Source: Planctomycetota bacterium
GTDB taxonomy: Bacteria; Planctomycetota; Phycisphaerae; Phycisphaerales; SM1A02
DNA length: 64,000 nucleotides
Direction: 5' to 3'
Assembly (NCBI GenBank): GCA_022574595.1
Contig: JACZRS010000009.1
Coordinates: 62,001 to 126,000 of the forward strand
A program made the position numbers and the translations under genes. Of the stretch, positions 9,271 through 12,141 are shown piece by piece. Positions within the stretch are counted from its first letter, which is position 1. Each line of letters starts with the position of its first letter. Below the pieces are notes generated by a model that saw only the letters and a program-made list of their open reading frames with translations, did not search any database and was not told where the DNA came from.

Positions 9271-10506
9271 ATGTTCAAGATAGCTGCAACACTCACCTTA
9301 TCAATGCCATTGCTCTTAGGATTAACTGCGCAAAATTCTCCAGACGATGTTTCAGTTAATTCCACTCTCACATCAGAAGCTGACAAGGAGCTTAAGGCGC
9401 TTCGTCAGAAATTCACCAACTTGAATAAGTCTCTCCTGGCTCTTGGCGGTATTTCTGATGCGTCCCATAAATTCATAGAAAACTTACGTGAGCAATTCGC
9501 TAGTTTTAACAATAAGCATCCAAGGAATCGCGCAGGAATTGCAAACGAACTGCAACTTGCGATGTGGCTTGGTGATGATAAAATTATCGATTCGCTTTAT
9601 ACCAAACTCATTGATGTAGCTGATGAGCGTCAACCGCTTCGAACCGCTTGGGCGACAATTCATAAGAAGAAGAACAACTACTTGCTAGCAATCGATATCC
9701 TTGAGGCTGAGCCTTATGACCCAGAAAAGGATCCAAGAGCTGCCTTATTATACTCGGACTGTTTGTTTGCTGAGAATCGCTTCCAAGAGGCTGTTGATGT
9801 TTTAGATGCAATCCCCAGTGGAGCAACACTCGGCGCTCCACTGCTAATGGTTCTTGGCACCCAAATATCAAGAGTCTTAAATGAACGTGAAAGTACACTT
9901 CAGTTTTGGGTAAAAGAAGAAGAAATTCGTGCGACTGAACTCTTTGAAGACGATCTGCCTCGGGTTGAACTAATAACTGATAAAGGTCGAATTGTTGTCG
10001 AACTCTTTGAGAATGAAGCTCGCTACACAGTGGCAAACTTCATCACGTTGGTCGAAGCAGGTTTTTATGATCTAAGTAAATTCCACCGGGTTATTCCTGA
10101 TTTTATGGCCCAAGGCGGAGATCCAAATACCAAGCCCGGAGGTACCGGAGAACCAGGCAAAGGTAGTCCCGGTTACCGTATTGCTGATGAACACAATTTG
10201 AGTAACTCAAGAAATCACTTTGCTGGCAGTCTCTCAATGGCTAAGTCTCCAGCACCTGATACAGCAGGTTGCCAATTCTTCCTTACGCATAGACCAACCA
10301 TTGATCTCAACGGCAAGCACACGGTTTTCGGACGTATCCTTGAGGGATTGGACGTTGCTCGCAGCTTGGAAGTTGATGATGTGCTGCAATCTGCCAAGGT
10401 ATTGCGTAAACGTGATCACGAGTACCTTTTCAAGACGCTTGATGATCCAACCGCTTCTTCTTCAACAGGATCCTCATTGGGCTTACCGATTAATATTGAT
10501 AAATGA
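9271..10506 (+). CDS. Secreted cyclophilin-type peptidyl-prolyl cis-trans isomerase
   Basis: A 411-residue protein with an N-terminal signal sequence (MFKIAATLTLSMPLLLGLTA) starts behind AGGAAAC. Residues about 35-225 are helical and TPR-like (for example DPRAALLYSDCLFAENRFQEAVDVLD) and may bind clients. A cyclophilin domain follows from about 228: VELITDKGRIVVELF, FHRVIPDFMAQGGDP (catalytic Arg, about 272), AGSLSMAKSPAPDTAGCQFFLTH and the closing KHTVFGRILEGLDV. It should catalyse proline isomerisation of proteins outside the cytoplasm. The CDGSH gene follows 27 bases downstream and may share the transcript. Confidence 0.9.
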   Translation: MFKIAATLTLSMPLLLGLTAQNSPDDVSVNSTLTSEADKELKALRQKFTNLNKSLLALGGISDASHKFIENLREQFASFNNKHPRNRAGIANELQLAMWLGDDKIIDSLYTKLIDVADERQPLRTAWATIHKKKNNYLLAIDILEAEPYDPEKDPRAALLYSDCLFAENRFQEAVDVLDAIPSGATLGAPLLMVLGTQISRVLNERESTLQFWVKEEEIRATELFEDDLPRVELITDKGRIVVELFENEARYTVANFITLVEAGFYDLSKFHRVIPDFMAQGGDPNTKPGGTGEPGKGSPGYRIADEHNLSNSRNHFAGSLSMAKSPAPDTAGCQFFLTHRPTIDLNGKHTVFGRILEGLDVARSLEVDDVLQSAKVLRKRDHEYLFKTLDDPTASSSTGSSLGLPINIDK

Positions 10507-10533: not shown

Positions 10534-10743
10534 ATGGCCCGTATGGTGCGACATGAAGCTACAAAGCCGCTAAAAGTAGACCCACAGGAAAAACCTGTTT
10601 TCATCTGCGCTTGTGGATTAAGCCAGAATCTCCCTCTCTGTGATGGCTCTCATTCTAAATGCCGCGATGAAGCTGCTGGGACGCTATATACCTACGATGC
10701 CAAGCGCCAATCCGTTGTAGATCAGCAGTCTGATCCCGGCTGA
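10534..10743 (+). CDS. CDGSH iron-sulfur domain protein
   Basis: This is a 69-residue protein made almost entirely of one CDGSH motif: CACGLSQNLPLCDGSH supplies the three cysteines and one histidine that bind a 2Fe-2S cluster. It is preceded by GGAGAG at a good distance from ATG 10534. Bacterial CDGSH proteins are small redox or iron-sulfur-handling proteins with largely unknown partners. It probably shares a transcript with the cyclophilin gene upstream. Confidence 0.9.
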   Translation: MARMVRHEATKPLKVDPQEKPVFICACGLSQNLPLCDGSHSKCRDEAAGTLYTYDAKRQSVVDQQSDPG

Positions 10744-11004
10744 TCACTCCCACCTTGCCGAGCCATTATGTTTTCATGGCAATTTTGCTTAGCGAACCGG
10801 TGCAAGTGCGCGCAGCTTGTACCGATAAATACGTTTTTTTTCACGATTTCCTATAAGGTCTGATTTGAAGCACTATGAAAGCCGATGTTGGTCGGTCATT
10901 CGGTCTAATTAGCCGAAGTGGACGTTATTTTGCCCTACTGCTCGCGAAGGTGTTTTGTAACATTCGCGACTAATGGGCCAGGCAAGCGTAGGAGAGAATC
11001 AACT

Positions 11005-11571
11005 ATGCCGAACAATAGCAAATCACCTTTCGGACCTTCATTTAACTCAGCCATCAAAAGCGGCACCCCATGTGGTGTTGCGATCGCCAACATTGCCAAA
11101 CGATGTGGCAAAAGCCCCAGCGTCGTTGGAAATTCACTATGGCGAGCAGGCATGTGCTTCCGTCAGAAGTTCAACAGCCATTTCGTCTTCTGGCCAGTAA
11201 ACGGCAAGAAGTGTGCATCAGCCAAATGGAAACCATGTCACACTGATATGTGGCAATGCTTCGTTGACTGGATCATCTGCAATGGATGGTGCAAGCCCGA
11301 GCAAATGCACAAACACTGCTCCAGCCAGAAGGAGTTCATGACTTGGTGCCGTAAGTTCTTCGCCAAGCAGTTCGGCCCAGCAACTGCTTCAAAGAGCAAG
11401 AGCAAACGAAAGACCGCCAAGAGGAAAACCACTGCACGCAAGCGCAAAACGACAACCGCTCGTAAGCGTAAATCCACTGCAGCCAGCAGACGTCGCAAGA
11501 CCAGCAGTGCACGCGTCTACAAGTTCCCACGCAGCAGCCGCAGCCGCACGGCTCGTCGTCGAGCTGCCTGA
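11005..11571 (+). CDS. Histone-H1-like basic protein with a Cys/Trp-rich N-terminal domain
   Basis: This 188-residue protein has two parts. Residues 1 to about 125 form a compact Cys- and Trp-rich region (GTPCGVAIANIAKRCGKS, then WKPCHTDMWQCFVDWIICNGW) that I do not recognise. Residues about 126-188 are an extremely basic tail of KRKTTARKRK-type repeats ending in RTARRRAA, as in bacterial histone-H1-like and AlgP-like proteins that bind DNA without sequence specificity. ATG 11005 follows AGGAGAG; the longer frame from 10918 lacks such a site. A strong terminator follows, so the gene is probably a single, well-expressed unit. The DNA-binding role is inferred from composition only. Confidence 0.75.
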   Translation: MPNNSKSPFGPSFNSAIKSGTPCGVAIANIAKRCGKSPSVVGNSLWRAGMCFRQKFNSHFVFWPVNGKKCASAKWKPCHTDMWQCFVDWIICNGWCKPEQMHKHCSSQKEFMTWCRKFFAKQFGPATASKSKSKRKTAKRKTTARKRKTTTARKRKSTAASRRRKTSSARVYKFPRSSRSRTARRRAA

Positions 11572-11603: not shown

Positions 11604-11636
11604 AACGCCGGCCATTTGGTCGGCGTTTTTATTTTT
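11604..11636 (+). terminator. Rho-independent terminator of the histone-like gene
   Basis: Stem AACGCCG/CGGCGTT with three further pairs (one G-U) encloses an ATTT loop (11604-11627) and is followed by a T-rich run to 11636. It sits 33 bases after the histone-like stop, before the convergent ACT-domain gene. Confidence 0.9.
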
Positions 11637-11670
11637 GCTTCAATAAGTAACTTAATGATCTTGCAAACAA

Positions 11671-12141
11671 CTAAGGCAAATCGCCTTCACCTAGCAAACG
11701 AAAGTTTTTCTTGCGAAGAACCTGGCCAGCTAAAACCTGATCATCTACCGCTAGTGCAATCGTCGGCGTGCCGTCAGGCCGCAGCATCAATGGATAAGCA
11801 AAGCGAATGCTTAGCTCCGCACCCAGAAGGTAAAGACACATACTCGTGAGATTGTGATCAGATACAAGCTCAACGATCAGCAAATCAAACTCTGAAAACG
11901 CCAGGGAGTTTTTCCTTAGCAACCCTCTAGCAGCATCTGCGTTGTTGGGGATAATCCTCACGACCGCGTGATCAGAGGATTCCAGAACACTAAACGCACA
12001 TAAATGTACGTTGGGAGCCTCATCGAAAAGACCGACCAACTCCAGCAGCTTTCCGACTTTGTTATCGAGAAAGACACTGAATTGCCTTACTGTCGGTGGG
12101 CTGTAGCCCTGTGTTGTCTCCAGAGGAACAAGTTCGTTCAT
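11671..12141 (-). CDS. Tandem ACT-domain protein
   Basis: A 156-residue protein consists of two ACT-type ligand-binding modules. The first is recognisable in VRQFSVFLDNKVGKLLELVGLFDEA with HAVVRIIPNN; the second is a degenerate copy around VSDHNLTSMCLYLLGAELSI. Free-standing double-ACT proteins usually sense amino acids and regulate transport or metabolism. AAGGA lies at proper spacing before the ATG. It lies about 130 bases downstream of the MqnD-like gene on the same strand. Confidence 0.75.
   Translation of the reverse strand: MNELVPLETTQGYSPPTVRQFSVFLDNKVGKLLELVGLFDEAPNVHLCAFSVLESSDHAVVRIIPNNADAARGLLRKNSLAFSEFDLLIVELVSDHNLTSMCLYLLGAELSIRFAYPLMLRPDGTPTIALAVDDQVLAGQVLRKKNFRLLGEGDLP

Follow-up and report, generated by a model that had tools for sequence, protein, structure and literature searches.

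The window analysed here, 64,000 nucleotides of a Planctomycetota genome of the order Phycisphaerales, carries on its forward strand a gene (11005..11571) that encodes a predicted winged-helix protein of 188 amino acids (21.4 kDa, pI 11.5). An alternative longer frame opens at a GTG at 10918, and the start at 11005 is favoured because of the position of the Shine-Dalgarno sequence and the starts of the family members. This sequence, AGGAG at 10990..10994 (+), ends 10 bases 5' of the ATG, and GGAG lies at most 20 bases upstream of the start in all 28 family members that were read. Downstream, a sequence scan detects an intrinsic terminator with a 10-bp stem and a T run at 11604..11637 (+); over 1.9 kb on both strands, 7 terminator-like sites were found vs 1.9 expected. 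Both the strong ribosome site and the terminator of the preliminary description are thus located. A search for a sigma-70-like promoter 5' of the gene found none, and an Rfam search gave no match. The upstream neighbour (9271..10506, +) resembles peptidyl-prolyl isomerases and the convergent downstream neighbour (11671..12141, −) is an ACT-domain-like gene, both named by eye. Directly upstream lies an ORF for a CDGSH-type iron-sulfur protein of 69 aa (10534-10743, +), its motif also read by eye.

The preliminary description, in which a Cys- and Trp-rich N-terminal domain is joined to a K/R tail, is accurate as to composition: the first 124 residues (hereafter, the N-domain) include 10 Cys and 7 Trp and are followed by a 64-residue tail. 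Across the family, the N-domains average 6.2% Cys and 4.8% Trp, compared with means of 1.3% and 1.4%, respectively, in the other ORFs used as background. The tail (residues 125-188; 11377..11568, +) consists largely of K, R, S and T, with 43% K/R and no Asp or Glu, and the model confidence (pLDDT) is under 50 throughout residues 124-188. The most basic 64-residue stretch of the protein has a net charge of +28, which ranks first among 94 ORFs of at least 100 aa taken from four stretches of the genome, the S10 ribosomal cluster included; the runner-up has +18. When the own genome was searched with the tail alone, no other protein with a comparable tail turned up (next match, E 0.08). In 28 members, the tails span 32-139 residues with 21-46% K/R and are free of D/E in all but one. 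Two short motifs recur within them: [YFL]xFP occurs in 19 of the 28 tails (YKFP at 11518..11529, +, in the window), and all 28 proteins end in [RK][AV]A (RRAA at 11557..11568, +), with AA as the last two residues in 23. A 29th member, from family f6, ends in RRYRRAA. The count of 28 leaves out L001 and L005 (the own gene again) as well as L009, L011 and L017 (duplicates of the records L002-L004), includes both L025 and L026, which are 99% identical, and relies on domain ends set by hand for L030, L032 and L038. In one member (L012, 1300-2010), an extra basic arm precedes the domain (residues 66-186 of 237) if the most upstream ATG is the start.

The structure was modelled with AlphaFold2 from four sequences, both for the whole protein (mean pLDDT 55.9) and for the N-domain alone (mean pLDDT 77.8, pTM 0.72). 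In the latter model, residues 8-66 (11026..11202, +) are predicted to form three helices (10-18, 23-34 and 38-47) followed by a beta-hairpin (strands 51-56 and 59-64), the order of elements of a winged helix, with a mean pLDDT of 75-92 per ten-residue block across residues 11-70. The predicted hairpin, or wing, corresponds to the family consensus RQKFNGQWxYWP (11155..11196, +). Its F56 and N57 are invariant in all 24 aligned N-domains, and KFNG is conserved at the hairpin tip, where the copy in the window has Asn-Ser in place of Asn-Gly; Asn-Gly is a usual tight turn at this position. The second part of the N-domain (residues 78-124; 11236..11376, +) is predicted to be helical (helices 82-92, 98-104 and 108-123). 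The PDB offers no strong structural match: the best Foldseek hit has an E-value of 0.12, with none at 0.001 or below; among the matches listed, query TM-scores do not exceed 0.33 and many rmsd values are over 10; and the best Z-score, 5.0 with the full model, drops to at most 3.5 when the N-domain model, which has the higher confidence, is used. Among the 50 matches listed for each PDB structure comparison, many are ArsR, MarR, MecI/BlaI, MntR, Zalpha, KAT6A WH and FtsK gamma entries, all presumably winged-helix DNA-binding proteins, and others are a 30S ribosomal chain, SelB, ESCRT-II, UFM1 ligase, MYST acetyltransferases and a designed helical protein. Entries for H1/H5 are missing from the matches listed in the structure searches, which is no evidence against the fold, and a search of predicted viral structures returned nothing significant (best E 0.077). 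Subthreshold sequence matches to HTH or winged-helix families include MecI (0.013), HTH_38 (0.026), TBPIP winged helix (0.14), Cbp1 (0.14) and Mnd1 (0.36), but each was obtained with a single member or with the profile only, and matches to unrelated families at similar E-values are more numerous. On these results, the assignment of the N-domain to the winged-helix fold is likely but unproven.

Searches of Pfam, NCBIfam, PHROGs and the PDB sequences gave no significant match for the protein family, only subthreshold ones, mostly with non-HTH families, and the Pfam scan of the own protein reported nothing besides Mtf2 at E 0.19. At the level of sequence families, the N-domain had therefore rightly been called unrecognised. 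Two candidate relatives, the Rubisco small chain (PDB sequence matches at E 0.069 and 0.35) and a phage tail protein (E 0.1, query coverage 31%), were taken as chance matches. The search for the N-domain across planctomycetes that the preliminary description had suggested recovers a real family, represented in 25 of 101 genomes when the own one is counted (18 of 61 in family f1, one in f3 and six in f4), always with a single match per carrier genome. A 24-row profile gave matches in 20 genomes of an order sample (301 genomes), two of them from f6; in four of 298 genomes of a class sample, all from the same order; and in five of 392 genomes of a phylum sample (the three samples overlap), four of them again from this order. 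The fifth, G721 (L047, E 9.3e-4 over 47 positions), resembles a generic HTH within an unrelated protein and was rejected; all confident members in the class and phylum samples thus fall within the order. Searches of phages, plasmids and viral contigs gave no significant relative. Three named relatives, from a Phycisphaeraceae, a Phycisphaerales and a Planctomycetota MAG, bear out the planctomycete origin proposed at the outset. The literature search, whose coverage excludes most subscription journals, found no description of the family, and carriers are perhaps annotated as hypothetical elsewhere. Apparently, then, this is a small, undescribed planctomycete family in which a strongly basic tail follows a domain predicted to bind DNA.

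Identity between the N-domain and the 23 others aligned with it is 23-71%. In the resulting alignment of 24 members, F13, G20, L45, F56, N57, P98 and Q108 are invariant, and each N-domain has 13-22 K/R residues vs 1-6 D/E. The N-domain is under purifying selection, with dN/dS values of 0.00-0.30 in six pairs (in two of which the N-domain dS exceeds 1.6); for the tails of the same six pairs, the values are 0.13-0.50.

Within f1, the surroundings of the gene are conserved. In 13 other f1 carrier loci (out of 19 other f1 carriers known), the isomerase-like gene is found in 11 and the ACT-like gene in 12, at a distance of no more than 0.4 kb from the N-domain in 10 of these loci; outside f1, the ACT-like gene is seen in none of the seven carrier stretches. 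The loci of non-carriers are correspondingly empty: the ACT-like gene lies near the isomerase or a QueD-like gene in 13 of 14 chosen f1 non-carriers, with no winged-helix gene there, and the gene is absent from all 16 non-carrier loci inspected (14 from f1, one from f2 and one from f5; about 3.4 kb each). Together, the stable synteny and the empty loci point to what is probably vertical inheritance within f1, with loss or gain at one place. Given that the gene was not found in 43 of the 61 f1 genomes, it is dispensable and hence no core part of the chromatin. The f1 carriers have larger genomes, with a completeness-corrected median of 4.1 vs 2.8 Mb (18 vs 43 genomes, p 5e-7), or 4.09 vs 2.7 Mb at a completeness of at least 90% (9 vs 35 genomes, p 3e-4), in a comparison that uses rounded sizes and statistics that ignore kinship.

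Codon usage gives a further sign that the protein may be abundant. In two-fold pyrimidine sets, the use of C-ending codons is above that of the pooled neighbouring ORFs at 18 of 18 loci (of the 21 submitted, three are missing from the table) and takes first rank at 16, with p values from 1.1e-7 to 0.03 that are uncorrected for many tests and refer to a background of mechanically called ORFs. This measure was chosen after the codon adaptation index relative to ribosomal proteins had told little (six of 71 ORFs score higher, with about 7 kb of the background counted twice), because ribosomal proteins in this genome hardly differ from the background. The C-ending bias fits high expression of the gene. 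In the own genome, however, the fraction for the gene (27/37) is well above that of EF-Tu (35/76) and three Cpn60 genes (34/94, 36/87 and 32/78), so the bias may have a cause other than expression; the 18 ribosomal-cluster ORFs have 174/436, and the median over 84 ORFs is 0.34. The three chaperonin matches are located at G000:C23:529941-533601 (two side by side) and G000:C18:171687-173195.

Other chromatin proteins are present as well. An Hc1-like gene (Pfam Hc1) is found, with one match each, in 96 of the 101 genomes, the own included, and in 41 of the 43 f1 non-carriers; HU is present in all 41 genomes searched, including all 14 f1 non-carriers covered, and the own genome has two HU matches, both on other contigs. 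Because this genome has both HU and Hc1-like genes, the winged-helix protein would add to the known packing proteins rather than replace them. The own Hc1-like protein (L102, G000:C10:1646-1807) is short, lacks a lysine-rich tail and is encoded on another contig. In three of the 16 carriers covered by the HU search, the winged-helix gene has a divergent HU gene with a K-rich start approximately 4.5-6.5 kb away (L059, L053 and L051 in G018, G019 and G020); the similar-looking HU with a K-rich start of the own genome, L104, is on another contig.

On balance, these features make it fairly probable that the gene encodes an abundant nucleoid-associated protein that binds DNA non-specifically and acts in the manner of linker histone H1 or Sso10a, a reading built on the predicted model and on analogy. 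The small, very basic winged helix would dock on duplex DNA with little sequence preference, as its predicted fold and charge suggest; the helical module that follows (residues 82-123) may mediate self-association; and the disordered K/R/S/T tail, by analogy with H1 and the chlamydial Hc1 and Hc2, would neutralise the charge of DNA and condense or bridge neighbouring DNA. The DNA-compacting role proposed in the preliminary description, itself a prediction, is supported by the anatomy, with a predicted winged helix, a basic, acid-free tail of low pLDDT and signs of high expression.

A close parallel in layout is linker histone H1/H5, which combines a winged-helix globular domain, a fold that is predicted here and has weak structure matches, with a long disordered basic tail such as the one found here. 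H1 is characterised by this globular domain, by a long disordered tail made of K, A and P, and by non-specific DNA binding, which is presumed for the present protein as well. The planctomycete family differs in having a K/R/S/T tail, an additional part of three helices, a fixed C-terminal tip and no detected sequence similarity: Linker_histone (PF00538) is absent among the 14 Pfam families that match at E 1 or below when 24 members are scanned, and a PDB profile search returned no H1 chain at E 10 or below. Like this protein, the chlamydial Hc1 and Hc2 are basic bacterial proteins with lysine-rich stretches; the own protein has no Pfam match to Hc1 (PF07432), and the single Hc1 match of its genome is the one on another contig. 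One report attributes variation in Hc2 length to lysine-rich pentamers (PMC2848022). The archaeal Sso10a and aDCP1/Sul12a are described, in an excerpt, as winged-helix chromatin proteins that dimerise through a helical C-terminal part (PMC11894785); they are archaeal, the excerpt mentions no basic tail, and the likeness is one of description. Another bacterial nucleoid protein is Rok of Bacillus. Its DNA-binding domain is a winged helix, and its layout differs from that of the present protein. Rok is reported to bind long A+T-rich regions of presumably acquired DNA (PMC2978689). Tailed HU proteins, such as L104 of the own genome with its K-rich start, have a DNA-binding domain and a K-rich arm, as is the case here, and no profile match to HU/IHF (PF00216) was obtained in the gene's family. 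The HU fold is unrelated to the winged helix.

Winged helices can also bind RNA or protein, and the protein might accordingly be an RNA- or ribosome-binding one, with an RNA-binding winged helix and a tail like those of ribosomal proteins, in which basic tails occur also. A 30S ribosomal chain indeed tops the structure matches (9fhl_c, Z 5.0), and the mRNA-binding domain of SelB is listed (2pjp, Z 4.1). The ribosomal part of this explanation fits poorly with a gene that was not found in most relatives, which excludes a general ribosome component, with a net charge that no ribosomal-cluster ORF of at least 100 aa reaches, and with nearest neighbours among which no translation gene was recognised by eye; overall, we consider the explanation unlikely. 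That many of the closest structure matches are bacterial repressors (ArsR, MecI and MarR) would suit a sequence-specific transcription regulator anchored by its basic tail. In the family, however, helix 3 varies more than the wing, no neighbour is constant outside f1, as the distribution of the ACT-like gene illustrates, and the signs of high expression are unusual for a specific regulator, all of which makes such a regulator rather unlikely.

Proteins of polyhydroxyalkanoate granules with H1-like tails are known. The basic protein could, along these lines, bind another polyanion or build a particle, be it polyphosphate, storage granules (with PhaF/PhaM-like phasins) or a phage-derived structure, and its basic tail has weak PHROG matches to phage tail proteins (0.042 and 3.1). 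Those matches begin at residue 117 or later, the N-domain is not predicted to be a long amphipathic helix, phages, plasmids and viral contigs provide no significant relative, and the chromosomal synteny is stable within f1, so this alternative seems quite improbable. Least of all do the data suggest a Cys-based domain that depends on metal or disulfides. The high average Cys content of the N-domains, over four times that of other ORFs, would agree with it, and metal binding had been envisaged in the preliminary description. This idea fails on the alignment: no Cys or His is found among the invariant or nearly invariant columns of the 24 members, Cys positions vary, and the number of Cys per N-domain ranges from 0 to 16, with one member devoid of them. 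In the best column, Cys occurs in 18 of 24 members and is replaced by F, L, I or V in the others, a pattern suggestive of a buried residue. Being frequent without being held in place, the Cys residues are unlikely to form a metal site, and a domain of this kind is highly improbable.

Under the preferred reading as a nucleoid-associated protein, a more speculative scenario can be tentatively put forward, namely that some planctomycetes independently evolved an analogue of the linker histone, with a winged-helix globular domain and an H1-like tail. Alongside HU and the Hc1-like protein, it would condense the chromosome; it would be made in very large amounts, be retained chiefly by larger genomes and be handled via its fixed C-terminal [RK][AV]A tip, perhaps a signal for turnover or docking. 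Gemmata belongs to another class of planctomycetes, so this family would not explain its nucleoid. For that organism, an electron tomography study describes DNA bearing bead-like particles in a highly condensed nucleoid, and HU proteins are named as candidates (PMC3440768). For Phycisphaerales, the family provides a concrete candidate for a packing protein, with natural carriers and non-carriers within one family. If the proposed role is correct, bacteria would have converged on the design of H1.
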